From NCBI GenBank assembly GCA_002104985.1, contig MCGO01000185.1, positions 1-64,000 on the forward strand: a stretch of DNA of 64,000 nucleotides, in the 5' to 3' direction. Under the pieces are notes generated by a model, which was not told the origin of the DNA, made no database searches, and saw only the letters and a list, made by a program, of their open reading frames with translations. This DNA is from Rhizoclosmatium globosum. Its lineage: Eukaryota; Chytridiomycota; Chytridiomycetes; Chytridiales; Chytriomycetaceae. This document shows, one piece after another, positions 21,345 to 30,723 of this stretch; position 1 is the first letter of the stretch; each line of letters opens with the position of its first letter. The position numbers were made by a program, and so were the translations under genes.

Positions 21345-23071
21345 ATGAGCGCAGATTCTGTAATGGGAGGTGGCCCGACATCTCAAGTTGTAATCCCCGC
21401 CCTCTACCCCAAGAAAGGGCAACCACGCAAGCTCGGTGCTGCCGAACGATTCGGACTAAGTGCTTTGGCTCCAGCAGGTATAGATTCGTCCTTGTGTGTC
21501 GTTTGGTGGCTGCGACTTTGATCTTGACAAAACCCTTGAGGTTAAAGATATTAATCGTTGCCAAAATAACAGTTGCCGTCTTCTTCACAAATCCATTCGA
21601 TACAGCAAAGTATGTCTTTAATCTAACTGTTATGTGCCGATGACTGGGCCCTTACATATGTTCCTTATCTGTAGGGTTCGGCTGCAGCTACAAGGACAAC
21701 GCGCAACCGCAATAAAAGCTGGTGCTGCAAACGGCGCTATTGCAACAGAAGCTGTGGTAATTGCTTGACCAATACCCTCGTTTTGAGGATCGGACATCAA
21801 TAACACGTGTCAACGTTCCTTTGCCATAATAGGTCTACAAGAACAGTTTTGATGCCATATTCAAAATTCTTAAACACGAAGGAATCAGAGGGATTCAAAA
21901 AGGCTTGTTTCCAGCCGTGCTGAAGGAGGGGAGCAAGAATTTCTTCAGAATTGGAATGTATGATCCGATAATGACTATGATCCATGACCCAAAGACGGGA
22001 TCTTCTCCACCTTGGAAACGAATGCTTGCGGGATCATTGTGTGGTGTTATGGGCGCGTTTGCTTGTAATCCTTTTGAACTCATCAAAACACGTCTACAAT
22101 CACAAGTTTCGGCGCAAAATTCACATCAGGCTGTCGGACACCAGTTTGCTTATAAAAATACATGGGATGCGTTTGTTAAAACTCTAAAGGCGGATGGACT
22201 GAAAGGGCTCTACAGAGGCTCTGTTCTCAGTATGGCACGGAGCTTTGTTGGGAGTGGTGTCAACTTGACTACGTATAGTATGATGAAGGAGTATTTGATT
22301 TTGAAAAAGAATTGGAAGGATGATTGGGTATTGGACATGATTGCTGGGATGAGTTCAGGTGTCATGAGTTGTGCTGCTATGAATCCTATTGACGTTGTTC
22401 GTACACGATATTATAATCAACCGTATGTGAATGGAAAGGGGACTCTTTATTCAAGTGGACTTGATGCCGTAAGTTTGGCTCATTTTGACTGTTTGATGTG
22501 TACTAACATTAATGTCAGGTTACTCACATTGTGAAGGTGGAGGGAGTGTCTGCGTTTTACAAAGGATTTACAACGCATTTCTTGCGTATTGGTCCCCACT
22601 TCTGTTGTAAGCCTTACCTTTGTTTTAACTATAATCCTCTAACGAGTTTTCTAGTGACATTTGTGTTTTTGGGAATGTTCCGGAGACAACTTGCTGAGGC
22701 ATATACTTACTTGGATATGCGTGACTCGTTCAAAAAGTTTGACCAAGACGGCAATGGGGTTCTTGACAAGAAAGAATTGGCTGATGTTATGAGAGAAGTG
22801 ATACCAAAAACAGGATTTGAAGATGCCGAGTATGAGCATATGGTATGGCACGTTTCATTATAGATAACGCTGTTAACACGATATACGACAGATTTTGGAT
22901 GCAACAATGCGTATCCTTGCTCAGGCAGATGTTAATAACGACGCTAAAATCTCGTTTGATGAGTACCCAAGAATGACAGAAGAAATTCAACGGATATATC
23001 AAGAAAAGACAACAGCTTCGCAATTATTTGGAGGAATAAGGGCTCGTAGCATGAAATCTTTTGGAGTCTGA
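21345..23071 (+). CDS. mitochondrial carrier (SLC25, OAC1/SLC25A34-35-like) with a C-terminal EF-hand pair
   Basis: Seven exons; about 445 residues. Three mitochondrial carrier repeats show their signatures: N-P-F-D-T-A-K-V-R-L-Q, N-P-F-E-L-I-K-T-R-L-Q and N-P-I-D-V-V-R-T-R-Y-Y-N-Q-P. The last form, with Y-N-Q-P, and the ending R-I-G-P-H are typical of the oxaloacetate/SLC25A34-35 branch. Beyond the sixth helix the same frame continues into two EF-hand loops: D-Q-D-G-N-G-V-L-D-K-K-E (about 22741-22776) and D-V-N-N-D-A-K-I-S-F-D-E (22930-22965), both with acceptable Ca-binding residues at positions 1, 3, 5, 9 and 12. Known Ca-regulated carriers (SCaMC, aralar) have EF-hands at the N-terminus. 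Substrate is not determinable; Ca regulation is inferred. Confidence 0.85.
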
Positions 23072-23115
23072 TTCACTCCCATCAAATACAAACTATTTAA
23101 CAGTCTTTAATGTTT

Positions 23116-24963
23116 TTATACACTTCCACCCTTCATCAAAATTGCATCAATGACTGCCTGTTTCCGCCTTTGATATTTCGCCTTCACAGCAGCAATTTCT
23201 GCATCCTTCACATCTTCCAGGGACATAAATAGCCTTTCATCAGTAATAGACCGTTTTCGAGCACGGACGCTATCTCCTGGGGAAGGTGTTCTCCCAGATT
23301 TCATTGCGCTAGGCGTGGGCATTCCAGGAGGTATTAAGATGGAGCTCACATTTGGAGGAGGTGAAGTGGAGAGATATTCAATAGCTCTTGTGATGAAACC
23401 GATTCCGTAGCTTCGTTTTGGCCGCTCAGCTGGAACAGAAATGGCACTTGTTGATAATGTGTCTGATTGTTCGGGAGAAGTTGGTCGAGAGTCTGGTTGT
23501 GAGATTTCAGAATACTTTCAGTTATTATGACCTGAACAAACCATTTTGAACGTAGTCCTCATAAATGGCATAGTCTTCATCTCCAAAGCCACTACCATCA
23601 TTTCGTTCGAGGACTGTATCGCGACTTCCAGGATCTAGGGCCTGAAGAGGGTATGCAGCTGTTTCTTCCAGGTACGTAGGCTCATCCATTTCACTACTGA
23701 CAAGGACTTCGTCATCTGGATCTGACAAATATTCAGTGACTCCTCTTCGCGGATCTAAGACTGCGGCTAATAAAGGCGACAAAGCATTTATGGATGGATT
23801 TCGGCGAATGAAAGGGTCCTGAGGAATAGTGAGAAAATACCTGGAAATGAAAGAAACATCAAACATTAAGCAGCTCCTCTGCGGTCGGTCGCGCTTTCTG
23901 GTCTTTCGTCAAACATCTTGCAACAAATGATCGAAAAACTTTTGAATATCGTTCCTCATCTTCTAATCGTGGTGGAGGCTTTGTTGGAATAATGAATATT
24001 GCTCTCATAGGATGAATATCGTGATACGGTGGCCTGCCATCCGCCATTTCGATGCATGAAATTCCCAGTGACCAAATATCCGCCGGTGTGCCGTATCCTA
24101 CTTCTTGAATGACTTCAGGTGCCTTTTTCGAACACAATCAGAATTCCCATTAAAAAAGACTAAAACCATTACCATCCTATGCAAAGGGTCAGCATTAGTC
24201 TTTTTGAACGTATTTAAACTTACCAAAACGGAGTTCCGATGACAGTCTGCCGTTTCGATGATGCATCAGATAGTTGGCCAGATACACCAAAGTCCGCCAG
24301 TTTCGCTTCTCCCCGTGTGTTGATCAAAATATTGCTATTTGATTCGTTTAAGTTTTCGGCAATAAGCGAGTAATGATCTTCAACTGACCCTGCTTTGATG
24401 TCTCGATGGATTTTTCTCATTGAATGCATATAAGCTAAGCCTTTAAGGGCGTATCGGCAAACAACCGATATCTGATCTTCGGAAAGTGTCATATTGCAGA
24501 ACTCCATAAGATCCGAAACAGATCCAGCGCCGCAGTATTCCATGACAATCTGCGGATGAAACAGCATCAATATCTCAGGTTTAGTCCACCCAGTCACCAT
24601 CTAAGCCAATCCCAACAATAAGTCTAGATGAAACGCACCCAAAGTTCCGCATCTCGAAGGTAACTGCCGTAATATTCAACGAGGAACTCCGAATGAATGC
24701 CCGTCATGAATGTGATTTCCTTGATGCTCTCGCTCAAATCCGCCTTCCCCGTCGGTAATATCTTGATGGCCACTACAGTATTTGTTCGCAAATGAATCGC
24801 ACGATGAACAGTCCCGAACGACCTGTCACGATGGCGAAAGTAACGTCAGACCCACTTCCCTAGCACCAAAGAAAACGCCTAATCACCCTTCGCCGATTTG
24901 GTCCTGAAGCTCAAAGACTCTGGTAGGATCCGTGCCCAGCTCCTCCTCTGTCAGTAATGGCAT
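23116..24963 (-). CDS. Hippo/MST-type STE20 protein kinase with SARAH-like tail
   Basis: ATG 24963; about nine exons, roughly 480 residues. Kinase motifs: I-G-E-G-S-F-G-T-V (Gly loop), V-V-A-I-K-I-L (Lys), I-H-R-D-I-K (HRD), L-A-D-F-G-V-S-G (DFG), G-T-P-F-W-M-A-P-E-V (activation/APE), A-D-I-W-S-L-G-I-S. G-T-P-F-W-M requires a 4-nt microexon at 24176..24173. After an acidic linker, the C-terminus R-L-F-M-S-L-E-D-V...A-K-Y-Q-R-R-K-Q-A-V-I-D-A-I matches the end of the SARAH helix of MST1/2 (...Y-Q-x-K-R-Q-P-I-L-D-A-I). That supports Hippo/MST rather than another germinal-centre kinase. Divergent with the gene at 24994, 30 bp between start codons. Confidence 0.85.
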
Positions 24964-24993
24964 TTTGGAAGCAAAAATTGCAACAAACAGGGC
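24964..24993. promoter_or_regulatory. 30-bp divergent start region (MST kinase / thioredoxin-MPDU1 A)
   Basis: Only 30 bp separate the two start codons, so at least one transcript must begin inside the opposing gene or both have very short leaders. The region is A-rich (GCAAAAATTGCAAC) with no TATA box. Confidence 0.5.
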
Positions 24994-26485
24994 ATGCTCT
25001 GGAAGGAACTGTCCTTCGTCCTCGCCTATTTGATAGGAAGATGCTTAAGTCATGGGGTACTTAGTGGGACAGTGTTTGACCTGATCGGCTACTAACGCTG
25101 CCTTCCGACTATTCAGGGCGAATCCAAACAAGACTTATATCGTCAATGGCCATCAGAGTCGGATCGCCAAATCAGCTTTATTCGAGACTTTCAACTTGAA
25201 GAACAAGTTATCCAGTCAAAGAATAGTACCTGGCTCATCTTTTATGCTGATCGCTACGAAAAGTTCAGCAAGAAGTTCTCGAGGGTATGGCTTGATGTAC
25301 AACAGGAACTTTACAAGCGAAATTACCCGGAATTTGTATTCAATATGGCAAAGATGGATTGTCGAGACTCTCCGGCTTGGTGCAAGCAGAAGGGCGTCAA
25401 CTTAGACGACTTTCCACAAGTATTCCTGTATCATAATGGTGCATTCATTGAGCAGTACAAGGGAGACGAGTGGCCGGTGCCTCTAATGGAATACATTGAG
25501 TCCAAAATTCAACTCTACTCCAACGAAACAGGATGGAAATCAAAGGATCTCTTGCCCACTGACAACAATGATGTTACTTCAAGTGGAATTGCTGTAATTT
25601 CCACCGTTAGATCCTCAGATTCTGGTGTCTTAAAGAGTGAATTGGGCGACATAGAATCTAAGAATGGGACAACCCCATCTATAAATGTGATTCAATTTCA
25701 TGGGTTCTTTGGTTTCCTTCAAGCGGTTTTTATTCGCCCCCTTATTGGCGCAGAATGCTCCAACTCTCTCCTCAGTTTCCAATGGCTGTCTCGATTTGAT
25801 TGCACTTGCCTGTTTCTATCCAAAATATTGGGATTTGGATTGGTCGCTGGAGGAGCTTTCATCAAGCTTCCTCAGATTTTGAAAATCATTTCGCAAGAGT
25901 CAGCTCTAGGCGTTTCGTTTTCAAGTTATGCGATGGAAACTGGTGCATATATTGCTGGAGTTGCTTACAACGTTAGAAAGGGCAACTCGTTTTTCACTTA
26001 TGGAGAACGTGAGTTTTGTTGATCAACTAGCACTCCCTTTAACACTCTGATTATTAGACGCGTTTATGGCTTTCGCAAACTGTGTCGTTGTTGCCTTGAT
26101 GTTCCATTATTCCAACCGCCAGAAGGATCTCGTTTCGGTTGGCGTCAGTACACTGCTGCTCACGATTTCACTTTTCAGCCGCTTCATAATCAGCGACACT
26201 TTATTGCTTATTTTTCAGTGGATCGCTCTCCTTATTGGCGCTGCTTCCAAAATTCCACAAATTCACAGTAACTGGACGCACAAGAGTTGTGGCCATTTGA
26301 GTGCCATGACAGTTGGATTGCAAACAATAGGGAGCTTGGCAAGATGCTTCACAACTGCGATTGAGGTGAAGGACACGGTCATTTTTGTGACATATTTTGT
26401 TGCAGCTGGCCTGAATGGAACAGTGCTCTATCAGATACGCCGATACTGGGGCCGACGTAGAAAAACAAAATCTCTACTAGATTAA
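24994..26485 (+). CDS. thioredoxin-like/MPDU1 PQ-loop fusion, copy A (CxxC lost)
   Basis: Exons 24994-25056, 25117-26008 and 26058-26485; about 460 residues. The hydrophobic start (L-S-F-V-L-A-Y-L-I-G) looks like a signal peptide. Residues about 55-160 form a thioredoxin/PDI-like fold: W-L-I-F-Y-A, M-D-C-R-D-S-P-A-W-C, cis-Pro D-F-P-Q-V-F-L-Y. The active-site CxxC is replaced by R-Y-E-K-F-S. The C-terminal half is MPDU1/Lec35: L-L-S-F-Q-W-L, G-A-F-I-K-L-P-Q-I and S-K-I-P-Q-I-H-S-N-W, the two PQ loops, in a multi-pass membrane segment. MPDU1 is needed for use of mannose-P-dolichol in the ER. The fold assignment is direct; the redox-dead role is inferred. Confidence 0.85.
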
Positions 26486-26527
26486 ACTATTTACCTAATT
26501 TGTTTGTTGTTGAAGTTGTTGCCGAAA

Positions 26528-28427
26528 ATGCGACTGATGCAACCCATCCTTGCTGTCATTAGTCTGTTCATATTGCAAGCATTTGCCCAGGTCTCTTGCA
26601 TATGACTCAATCGAAATGCCCTCTAACTTAAGATAGAATGTCAATGAGCTCTCTGCAATCGCTGACAAGGATATTTGGTTTCTGGGACCTGGAACATTCG
26701 AGGAGCGAGTCATAACTCCTAAGCAAGGCACTTGGTTGGTGTTCTATGCTACTCGGTATGTTTCAATGCATGGCTTAAAGCCTGCTGAGCTCTAGTACAG
26801 ATGGTGCCCATACTGCAAGAAGCTAAATCCAAAGTGGTTGGAGCTCCAGAAGCAAGTGGCGCAGGAACAGTTGTACACCAAAGGCTTCTCAATGGCAAAA
26901 GTCGATTGTACGGACGTGGCTGGTGAGTGAGGAGCTTTCCACTGTTAAATTGTTGACAACAAGTTGGCAGGATGGTGTAGTAGCAACCTGAAAGTGAAAG
27001 GGTACCCCAACCTCTACGTGTATCATAACGGTGAATACGTAGATGAATATTTGGGGCAGCATGAAGCTGACGTGATTATGGCATACATCAAGCAGAAAAT
27101 GGCGTTGTATGATTCAGCTCAACCACCTGTCGATGTCAAACAACCTCCATCAATTCAACCAGCAGGAGAAAACGATATTGTAAAGAAGGATGTGAAGGAC
27201 ACGAAGGAGGATGTAAAGGTTGCTCCTGAAGTTCCACCTATTGAGGCTCAGGCTCCTACTCCAGATGCGAAACCAACTACTCCAGCCGCAAATCAAGTCA
27301 TTGATAAAAAAGATCAGAATGCGGCTAGTCCCCAACAACAGCAACAGCAACCAATCAATCCACCTACGGTCCCAACAAAAGCGGCGGTACCCATCGGGAA
27401 TCCTCCAAATCCCCCTGTCGAACAAAAACCATTGCCTACCGTTGCAGCTCCAGCCGGCCCTGTTAAACAAGAAGCTCCAGCTGGACCTGTAGCAGCTCCA
27501 AATAATGCAGCCGGAGCCGCCCCAGCTGTCGTTGATGCAAAAGCAGCCTACCCCGACCCCGTCGCATACGAAGACGACGACACAGACCACAAACCAATCA
27601 AAGGCGTCGCCAAACACCCCCGCAAAGAGTTCCGTGGATTCCGAGGATTCCTCCAAACCAATTTCGTAACTCCACTCGTAGGTCCCGAATGTTCCACGTC
27701 TCTCCTCAGTTTCCAGTGGTTCTCACACTTTGATTGCACGCGGTTGTTGATTTCAAAGGTTCTTGGGATTGGATTGGTTGCGGGTGGTGCTGTTATTAAG
27801 CTTCCGCAAATCTTCAAGATTTTCCAAAAGAGGAGTGCGTTGGGCGTTTCGTTTGCCAGTTATGCTTTGGAAACCGCGGCGTACATTGCGGGGCTTGCAT
27901 ATAATGTTCGACGGGGAAATGCCTTCAATACTTATGGAGAACGTGAGTTTCGTAATTTTGTGAAAACCATTTGAATCTAATTCCTCTGTTTCATCATAGA
28001 CGCGTTTATGGCTGTTGCCAATTGTATCGTTATCGCCATGATGTATCACTACACAAGACGTCACAAGGACTTGGTTGTCATTGGAACCCTTACATTTATT
28101 TTTACCGTCTCGTTGTTCACCAAGGCCATCATTAATGATACCTTACTTCTCAGCTTCCAGTGGATTGCGATTCTCGTCGGTGTTGTTTCGAAGGTCCCCC
28201 AAATTCACAGCAACTGGTCGAATCAAAGCTGTGGGCAATTGAGTGCTGTTACAGTTGGATTACAGACTATTGGAAGTTTGGCTAGATGTTTCACGACTGC
28301 AACGGAAGTCAAAGATACTGTCATCTTTGTGACATACTTGGTAGCCACAGCTTTGAATGGAACAGTACTCTATCAGGTTGTGATTTATTGGGGAAGGAAA
28401 CGAAAGGCCAAGTCTTTGTTGGATTGA
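26528..28427 (+). CDS. thioredoxin/MPDU1 PQ-loop fusion, copy B (CPYC intact)
   Basis: Starts 42 bp after copy A and shares its last intron position and phase. Signal peptide M-R-L-M-Q-P-I-L-A-V-I-S-L-F. The thioredoxin domain has an intact active site R-W-C-P-Y-C-K-K (codons joined across the second intron), V-D-C-T-D-V-A-G-W-C and cis-Pro G-Y-P-N-L. A Pro/Ala/Lys/Gln-rich linker of about 150 residues follows (absent from copy A), then the MPDU1 module with K-L-P-Q-I and K-V-P-Q-I loops; about 560 residues. Infer an ER membrane protein with a lumenal PDI-like domain attached to a dolichol-sugar utilisation factor. Both halves are strong family matches; the joined function is not known to me. 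Confidence 0.88.
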
Positions 28428-28472
28428 TGATTATAAGTTGTTATTATATAAAGACCCTTCTTTATTTTACAA

Positions 28473-30723
28473 TCACTTTTTTGCATTTGCATTGTTGCGA
28501 TTAATACTGTTGACAGGTATAGCCTGCTGAGCCATCTGTTGCATGAACGCAGCTGGGTCCATATTAGGAGGGAATCCAGGAGGCAATGGCGGAGGGCGCA
28601 TCCCAGGAATCATGGGTGGCGGAGCCATTCCTGGAGGGAATGGGAACCCAGGCGGTAATCCAGGCGGCATCCCAGGCGGCATTCCCGGTGGCATACCAGG
28701 AGGCATACCTGGAGGAGGAATACCAGGAGGAAAGGGTGGAGGTCTCATATTTGGTGGAGGTCGGAATCCAGGTGGAAGAGCACCTGGAGGGAAAGGGAAT
28801 CCTGGAGGCGGTCTGAATCCAGGAGGAAGGCCAGGTGGCATTTGAGGTGGCATCATGGGAGGACGTGCTCCCATGGGCATTGCCGGAGGCATTGGAGGAC
28901 GACTTTGTTCGTCAATTCTAGCGCGTTTTGGATCCGGGCCTTCTTTCTCTGTGGTCCTGCCAGAGCTTCCAAATGATAAACCAGGTAAAGAAAACTCTTC
29001 GCTCTCTGTGTGCGCTGGATTAATATTCAAGTCACTCCGAAGAATCAAAGCTTACTGTTGCTCGCGATGGTAACTTCCTTGATTCCCATAAACTCTTCGT
29101 CCTTTCTAGTTTGAGAGAAACGATCATGCATAACATCACCCGGTCTATTTCTGGCCCAGAATCGAGTTGTGTGGTCGTTCGATGCAGACGCCAGCAAATG
29201 ACCACACGGATGGAAATCAAGCGAAAACACAGTTGATTCGTGCGCTTGCTCCATTCCTCCCACTGAAAACTCGGTCCCTACATCCCAATAACAAATGGCT
29301 CCATCAGATCCTCCACTAACAAATAGTGTTTCGTTGAAAGGATGCCAAGCCACAGCTAATTTATTCAGTAAGTAAGAGTCAAAGAATAAATAAAAACACT
29401 CACTTGAAACCTCTTTTTTGTGCCCACGGAAGGCTTGCAGCTCCTTCATCGTACGAATATCATAGACACGAAGAAGTTGATCCCTGGATGCAGTTACCAA
29501 CCAGTTTCCATTTTGATTCCATTTCAAAGCAAGAATTGAGTTCTTGTGGCCATAGAGAGTACTAAGTTCATTTCCAGATTTAGGATCCCACTGTCATTTC
29601 GAAAGAGTGAGCAAGAAATGATTATGAAATGAGTTATCCGAACCAGCTTTACTAAATGATCTTTGGATCCGGATGCAAGTAATGCTTTTGAAGGATGCCA
29701 GTCAACACATTTTACATCCCAACCATGTCCTGTCAATGTTCTTTCCTCTCTATCCTCTCCAAATACCCAAATCTTGATTGTTCCATCATCTGAACAAGAG
29801 GCAAAGCGAGTATCGGTTGGAGAGAATCTGGGAATCATTGTGGATGAGATTGTAGGAGAAATAAATCGATAAAAACTCACGTCAATTCTCTCACAGACTC
29901 TTTGTGAGCCTGAAACTCTTTAAGACTACTCATATTCGATTGCCAATACTTGATTTTTCCTGCATCGTCTCCACTGAGTAACCAAGTATCGTTGTGAGAC
30001 CATGCCATTGAACGCACAGCTCTGTCATGAGCCTGATGAATAGTCTCAAAATTGAATGCTAGACCGTTCCAGAGCGTGAATTCACCACTAGAAGCACCAG
30101 TAATGAGACGTCGACCTTCAGGGGTCCACTGTTTGCGTAGAAAACTGTAGTTAGGAACTATTGCACTCATCGATTGATCATGGAGAGAGGCATTTGTACC
30201 TTGAGAACATTGATTGGACATCTAATTTTGTTGATTGAAGTGTGGACGAACTTTGTAGCGATTTGGACCGCTGGGTTGCAACGTGTAGCAAAAGCCGGAG
30301 GCATCTAAAGCATCGTATTAGCAAGGACAACAGAGGCACTAGTCGAGACGCACCTCGACGACAAAGTTGTTATCTGGCTGTGTAGTCAGTGGTTCTCTCG
30401 GGTCGCGGGCCGTGGTTCTGTTCTGATTTGACGAACCAAGTTAGCCGGTCTTTCTTTCTTTGTTGCTTCGGAGAAAGAAAGACTGTTTTATTTACTTCGA
30501 GGTACTTTGCGACGACCGAGTTGTAGTCGACGGTGCGTCGCTGAATCGCCTTTCGAACGCGTTTGCCGTCGAAGGTGCCGCTGTGTTGGTACTCGCCCGG
30601 TCCGCTGTTGTTGTTGTAGTTGTTGTTGTTGTTGCTGTTGTTGCTGTTGAAGGAGGAGGCCGGCCGGATGCTGCCGCCTGGTGCGCCGCCGCCTCGGGGT
30701 CGGTACGATGAGTTGTAGGACAT
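28473..30723 (-). CDS. PFS2: WDR33/Pfs2, WD40 subunit of the mRNA polyadenylation (CPSF) complex
   Basis: ATG 30723 down to 28473, about nine exons. The N-terminal segment [17 protein letters not shown], then K-Y-L-E-N-R, and [14 protein letters not shown] lead into W-T-P-E-G-R-R-L. Seven WD repeats follow ([43 protein letters not shown]). The C-terminus is Pro/Gly/Met-rich with repeated P-P-G-M, like the collagen-like tail of animal WDR33 and unlike short yeast Pfs2. In the family it binds the AAUAAA signal with CPSF30. Convergent with copy B of the MPDU1 fusion, 45 bp between stops. Confidence 0.92.

Follow-up and report, generated by a model that had tools for sequence, protein, structure and literature searches.

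Two neighbouring genes, here called A and B, lie in the first 64,000 nucleotides of the forward strand of contig MCGO01000185.1 (the window) of the chytrid Rhizoclosmatium globosum (Chytriomycetaceae; 56.9-Mb assembly, 420 contigs). As judged from the sequence, each gene encodes a one-chain fusion of a thioredoxin domain, a linker, and a membrane module of the MPDU1 family. Gene A (24994–26485, plus strand) comprises three exons (24994–25056, 25117–26008, and 26058–26485) encoding 460 amino acids, and gene B (26528–28427, plus strand) comprises five exons (26528–26590, 26637–26755, 26801–26922, 26971–27942, and 28000–28427) encoding 567 amino acids. All six introns are of the GT–AG type and 45–60 nt long, and each gene forms one open frame; these splice models confirmed the coordinates and both joined frames of the two tandem genes that had been proposed from the DNA letters alone (the original prediction). 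The product of gene B was identical in full to the public R. globosum protein BCR33DRAFT_716748 at NCBI (P0001), and the splice model of B is supported because the public model gives the same product. A protein-database search with the gene A protein, in which proteins of about 253–805 amino acids could be found, returned no match to itself, and gene A thus seems to be absent from the public protein set in that size range. A second copy of the locus on another contig (C124) was identical to the window over 23000–30271; with zero differences between the two haplotypes, this comparison carries no information on selection.

The splice models and Pfam matches gave gene A the layout of a signal-peptide-like start, a thioredoxin domain without CxxC, a short linker, and an MPDU1-like module. 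Its second exon (25117–26008) takes in the entire thioredoxin domain and the linker and continues into the MPDU1 module, whose initial part it encodes. The fourth exon of gene B (26971–27942, plus strand) likewise connects the latter half of the thioredoxin domain to the initial part of the MPDU1 module, through a linker of about 170 residues that looks by eye to be rich in P, A, K, and Q. No intron separates the thioredoxin, linker, and MPDU1 parts in either gene, and this shared exon supports the earlier claim of a true fusion in an early-diverging fungus. Among the 18 proteins matched by the MPDU1 part of the Podochytrium protein P0003 (itself counted), a precomputed thioredoxin annotation was present in three, namely gene B, P0002 of Entophlyctis luteolus, and P0003. 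The Physocladia protein P0004 showed the second half of a thioredoxin domain only, at 17.3 bits and below the cut-off. The thioredoxin plus PQ-loop architecture, for which the original prediction had pointed to other early fungi, was therefore seen by protein-database search in Entophlyctis, Podochytrium, and partly Physocladia, that is, in models from three other genera, two of which contain just half a thioredoxin domain. The Entophlyctis protein has CPYC, as B does. P0003 begins in the middle of the thioredoxin domain, and in P0002 a segment ahead of the active site is missing and extra residues stand before W-C; since these breaks lie near the intron places of B, they were taken as imperfect gene models. 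All three public models (P0002, P0003, and P0004) seem to represent the thioredoxin part incompletely, with a segment missing, an insert, or a start that comes late.

The thioredoxin domain of gene B scored 63.2 bits against the Pfam Thioredoxin profile (cut-off 23.5 bits), whereas that of gene A (25198–25488, plus strand; residues 49–145, entirely in exon 2) scored 19.9 bits (E 7.4e-4), below the cut-off. The two domains were equal at 42/121 residues (34.7%) and aligned with a score of 234, whereas 200 shuffles of A scored no higher than 48, so the A domain is considered homologous to that of B despite its Pfam score. A low-confidence model of the A domain (mean predicted local distance difference test score, pLDDT, 49.4) gave 43 Foldseek matches at E ≤ 0.001, among them thioredoxins and the second thioredoxin domain of ERp46 (E 1.7e-4). 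For the B domain, related rows were too few for a structure, its blocks having a pLDDT of 25–45 within a whole-B model of mean pLDDT 50.5. The translated splice model of B contains the active site C63-P-Y-C66 (26805–26816, plus strand) within R-W-C-P-Y-C, and in the alignment gene A has R67-Y-E-K-F-S72 in its place (25252–25269, plus strand). A second cysteine pair is present in both genes, as C103/C110 in A (DCRDSPAWC; 25360–25383, plus strand) and as C97/C104 in B (DCTDVAGWC; 26907–26978, plus strand, interrupted by intron 3). This pair lines up with cysteines of the TXNDC5 and ERp57 domains, indicating that it is a trait of the PDI family and not a novelty. A proline ahead of the next strand is retained (GYPN in B and DFPQ in A), which we take to be the thioredoxin cis-proline. 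The N termini of A, B, and the five related chytrid proteins P0005–P0009 had hydropathy scores of 2.2–3.8 and are signal-like by hydropathy alone. The alignments thus bear out the active-site motifs and the D-C-x-D-x3-W-C pair of the original prediction and, at the level of sequence, its pairing of a putatively redox-active gene (CPYC in B) with a redox-dead sister (YEKFS in A).

The C-terminal part of each protein is an MPDU1-like module, at 25702–26485 in gene A (plus strand; residues ~217–460, carrying C235 and C250) and at 27636–28427 in gene B (plus strand; residues 324–567). The PQ-loop repeats scored 82.1 bits in A and 87.5 bits in B, with two stretches in each (Pfam cut-off 22 bits), and residues that are constant in the MPDU1 family were kept at 34/35 columns in B and 33/34 in A, a count that leaves out the rows lgn277 and P. 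planicorne, plus A when B was scored. These results support the MPDU1-type membrane module of the original prediction. The model of B placed the MPDU1 part in a SWEET-type fold of seven transmembrane (TM) helices (blocks at pLDDT 62–79), and the fold of A is assigned by homology. A structure search with B gave one match at E ≤ 0.001 among 160, which was a SWEET. A sequence search returned no solved MPDU1 structure, only two unrelated matches (E 0.85 and 0.93), and none stood among the VIA-align matches listed, which excludes nothing. A glycine aligned with G73 of MPDU1 is present in 20/20 MPDU1-family rows, including A and B; according to the available part of PMC6850978, a change of G73 causes MPDU1-CDG (congenital disorder of glycosylation). 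At the C terminus of both proteins (26450–26485 in A and 28392–28427 in B), a basic stretch is followed by K-[SA]-L-[LM]-D. This ending was found in 7/7 rows of the fusion clade (A, B, Entophlyctis, Podochytrium, Physocladia, Chytriomyces, and Obelidium) and in 0/13 of the other rows compared. It does not fit the KKxx signal rule.

The R. globosum genome contains a separate, canonical MPDU1 gene (contigs C106 and C2), whose product shares 40.7% of 241 aligned residues with B and has no thioredoxin domain and, by eye, no signal-like start. Its counterpart in Podochytrium (P0012) had an N-terminal hydropathy of 1.49, compared with the 2.2–3.8 given above. In a 20-row tree, 12 MPDU1-like rows including A and B formed one clade (100/99) on a long branch, and the two canonical chytrid proteins sat beside it (91/89). 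Within the tree P0005–P0009 (Zopfochytrium, Blyttiomyces, JEL0842, and two Phlyctochytrium), which have a hydrophobic start and, by eye, a low-complexity stretch, clustered together (87/89), although not firmly in a 14-row tree. The identity to four animal MPDU1s was 34.6–36.2% for the canonical protein versus 30.1–31.2% for B. The presence of the canonical gene rules out A or B as the sole or canonical MPDU1 of the organism and places the pair in a second MPDU1-like clade. On this evidence, it was a second MPDU1-like gene that became fused, and the clade of this gene was seen here only in chytrids. The canonical gene (L050:1892–2791 on C106, and L051) adjoins an open reading frame that resembles the coding sequence of an OGG1-type DNA glycosylase.

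Of the 20 MPDU1-family rows, one was dropped because its model lacks the relevant segment, and 26 columns were invariant in the remaining 19/19. Two of these are cysteines, C342 and C357 of B (27690–27737, plus strand), and they are the sole invariant cysteine columns among the 19 rows, corresponding to C22 and C37 of badger MPDU1, which has G at position 73, as human MPDU1 does, and was used for numbering. In the model of B, C342 lies in a short helix just before TM1 and C357 at the start of TM1; on this model, both should face the lumen of the endoplasmic reticulum (ER), on the same side as the thioredoxin domain. The fused thioredoxin is a possible partner of C342/C357. The invariant MPDU1 cysteines are not mentioned in the available part of PMC9333335, and the words cysteine and disulfide are absent from the main text of PMC3281891 in the form available.

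A stand-alone thioredoxin gene in the same genome (contigs C95, C388, and C384) has a hydrophobic start, a CKFC site, and an end directly after the domain. It was found as three closely similar copies (L056:1323–2026 on C95, L057, and L058), and the C95 copy when spliced encodes 156 residues. Apart from the window locus, it was the best genome match to the thioredoxin domain of B, with identities of 49.1% to B (57/116) and 41.0% to A (48/117). Compared with B, its first intron likewise has phase 0 and lies ahead of the domain, its third has the same place and phase (phase 1, before W-C), and its second is 4 nt apart; gene A is without introns 2 and 3 of B. In a thioredoxin tree, A, B, three other fusions, and the stand-alone gene formed a clade (100/99) against seven other R. 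globosum thioredoxin domains. With its matching introns, the stand-alone gene was likely the source of the thioredoxin part of the fusion. By eye, a WW-domain-like reading frame lies near it.

The original prediction also held that A and B arose by duplication after the fusion, on the grounds that they share the position and phase of the last intron (26009–26057 in A, plus strand; phase 1, YGE/H). The shared position and phase were borne out, but the canonical MPDU1 gene has this intron at the same place and phase, so the intron is older than the fusion, dates no duplication, and fails as evidence for one. A second intron common to A and B, which the prediction had missed, lies after codon 21 in phase 0 (25057–25116 in A, plus strand). 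For the MPDU1 part, A and B grouped together in the 14-row tree (92/87), a grouping not resolved in the 20-row tree, and approximately unbiased (AU) tests also kept trees that joined B to Obelidium or grouped six others without A (p-AU 0.28 and 0.32). For the thioredoxin part, the best tree joined A to the stand-alone gene (73/85), and the AU tests kept the pairing of A with B (p-AU 0.24) as well as a group of all five fusions (p-AU 0.27). Duplication after the fusion is likely, but the AU tests do not decide the matter. A simple duplication followed by fast change in A would fit; a split of greater age, conversion of one of the neighbouring genes by the other, or a separate fusion event for each gene would be possible alternatives. 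In the MPDU1 part, 173/240 residues of A and B were equal, with differences of 63, 27, and 145 at codon positions 1, 2, and 3, saturated synonymous change, and a maximum likelihood (ML) dN of 0.18, versus 0.60 in the thioredoxin part. By this pattern, gene A is constrained.

The two genes are closely packed, with 42 bp (26486–26527) from the stop codon of A to the ATG of B and 30 bp (24964–24993) between the ATG of A and the nearest in-frame ATG of a divergent protein-kinase gene. This tight spacing could reflect shared promoters or a joint A–B transcript. Downstream, a gene on the minus strand (28473–30221) combines WD40 repeats with a stretch rich in proline, glycine, and methionine that has no Pfam match. 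This gene resembles the mRNA 3'-end factor Pfs2/WDR33.

By analogy with TMX1, we tentatively favour a reading in which B is a membrane-tethered ER reductase that acts on the cysteines of its own module or on dolichol-sugar enzymes, with A as a redox-dead partner. In this scheme, a stand-alone thioredoxin gene of the secreted type would have been joined to the second chytrid MPDU1-like gene, leaving the canonical MPDU1 separate. Fold and homology would place the N terminus and thioredoxin domain of A and B in the ER lumen and the C terminus in the cytosol. B would then act as a tethered oxidoreductase, most likely a reductase given its CPxC site, on the invariant C342/C357 of its own module or on adjacent enzymes that use dolichol-P-sugars. 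A, in which catalysis would have been lost while the fold and two cysteine pairs (the second thioredoxin pair and the invariant pair of MPDU1) are retained, would serve as a non-catalytic binding or regulatory partner. A tethered luminal reductase is favoured because CPxC occurs in the membrane-anchored TMX1 and TMX4, and OST3/6-type proteins set a precedent for glycosylation. The genome also encodes ALG3 and OST3/6, indicating that parts of the usual pathway exist and that the fusion is no substitute for OST3/6. A broader and rather improbable extension is that in MPDU1s in general the invariant cysteine pair serves as a redox switch on the luminal side and governs the use of dolichol-P-sugars; B would carry a welded-on dedicated reductase, A would compete or buffer, and elsewhere a free PDI-family protein would act in trans.

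Several observations weigh against a tethered reductase. None of the five related chytrid proteins P0005–P0009 gave a thioredoxin match. The invariant pair may be a plain structural disulfide, for which the same pattern would be expected, because it also occurs in MPDU1s without a fused thioredoxin. The retention of A without CxxC means that redox activity is not required of every copy, which would also suit a thioredoxin fold kept as a binding or chaperone module that recruits clients or partners, its redox activity being incidental and free to be lost. In favour of that explanation, A remains constrained and retains its second cysteine pair, and TUSC3 is reported in the available part of PMC7563561 to have functions in the oligosaccharyltransferase that do not depend on oxidoreductase activity; on the other hand, CPYC is present in B and Entophlyctis and CKFC in the stand-alone relative, and the greater change of the A thioredoxin than of its MPDU1 part fits relaxed constraint, and we regard a pure binding module as somewhat unlikely. 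The MPDU1-like clade, standing apart from canonical MPDU1, may also have changed its role. It could have left dolichol-P-sugars altogether, becoming a PQ-loop transporter or a cargo receptor in the ER or Golgi that carries its redox domain in the lumen, with the dolichol work left to the canonical MPDU1. The greater similarity of the canonical protein to its animal counterparts (in four species) and the separate clade on its long branch agree with such a shift, and carriers of sugars, carriers of cystine, and cargo receptors all occur among PQ-loop proteins (PMC3281891 and PMC7561476, in the parts available); the near-complete retention of the family-constant columns, together with the G73-aligned glycine, does not, and we give this explanation about the same limited credence.

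Two further explanations would remove one gene or the joining itself. If gene A were a decaying copy, a young pseudogene, only B would matter; A departs from 10/119 columns that are constant in its relatives, compared with 0–5 for each of 11 others, its branch in the 14-row tree is 0.55 compared with 0.02 for B, and it was not matched in the protein-database search. However, its 460 codons contain no stop or frameshift despite saturated synonymous sites, its introns are intact, and the tail KSLLD is conserved, which makes decay very unlikely. The joined frames might instead be an annotation artefact, with thioredoxin and MPDU1 made as separate proteins, as the Obelidium and Chytriomyces models (P0010 and P0011; 262 amino acids), which begin just ahead of the MPDU1 part, could suggest. 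This we hold to be highly improbable, given that one exon spans the thioredoxin (whole in A, second half in B), the linker, and the start of MPDU1, and that the join recurs in models of three other species, two of them partial.

A literature search for a fusion of thioredoxin with PQ-loop or MPDU1, or for the MPDU1 cysteines, found none among the matches listed, which covered mainly titles and the starts of abstracts, with subscription journals largely outside. The part families are already known, and the architecture is present, unremarked, in the public automatic annotation of gene B; what appears to be new is that they are joined, that a redox-dead sister stands beside the fusion, and that the constant MPDU1 cysteines are connected with it. 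The function of MPDU1 is called unknown in the available part of PMC3281891, and that of PMC6850978 ties it to the flipping of dolichol-P-mannose. A natural fusion points to thiol chemistry in the ER as a candidate partner activity of MPDU1. The candidate target is specific: a pair of cysteines that does not vary between chytrids and mammals among the 19 rows compared. The fusion also supports a luminal N terminus for MPDU1. Each of these points could be tested in human or hamster cells, with no need for genetics in chytrids.

Among known systems, TMX1 and TMX4 are membrane-anchored reductases of the PDI family with a CPxC site (PMC7563315, available part). They share with the fusion a signal-like start, one type-a thioredoxin domain, CPxC (in B), and a membrane anchor, but the anchor of B is modelled as a seven-helix MPDU1-like module in place of the single membrane helix usual for TMX proteins, and A is without CxxC. 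OST3/6-type proteins, which span the ER membrane several times, use their thioredoxin domain in glycosylation by forming mixed disulfides with clients (PMC7563561). OST3 and OST6 (TUSC3 and MAGT1) resemble the fusion in their signal peptide, luminal thioredoxin with CxxC, and multi-span membrane part, and differ in having four TM helices of another family. The original prediction had drawn this comparison, but Pfam gave no match to PF04756 in A or B at E ≤ 1, and R. globosum has its own OST3/6 gene on contig C334 (96.2, 57.6, and 37.8 bits across most of the model); membership of A and B in OST3/6 is thereby ruled out. Two more matches to this profile, on C233 and C57 and each scoring about 29 bits, fell at places of PDI-type thioredoxins, and the same search gave matches in 5/14 control genomes, one above the cut-off. 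Cystinosin has a PQ-loop fold, in front of which some 120 N-terminal residues lie in the lumen (PMC3281891), but is distant in sequence, at 14–16% in a structural alignment with B. The best-scoring solved sequences to the B thioredoxin were TXNDC5 (ERp46) and then PDIA3/ERp57, which share its second cysteine pair (VDCT...C) and differ in being multi-domain and in showing "wc.hc" at the active site in the aligned stretches. We take this string to be a CGHC-type site. The N-terminal stretch of cystinosin is not known to be a thioredoxin. The stand-alone R. globosum thioredoxin is akin to B in sequence, matching introns, and hydrophobic start, and differs in its CKFC and in having no membrane module. 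The closest comparison for the membrane part is MPDU1 (SLC66A5, Lec35), with which A and B share the PQ-loop module and the constant residues, including the G73 glycine and the two N-terminal cysteines, and to which they add a hydrophobic signal-like start, a thioredoxin domain, and a linker within a separate chytrid clade.

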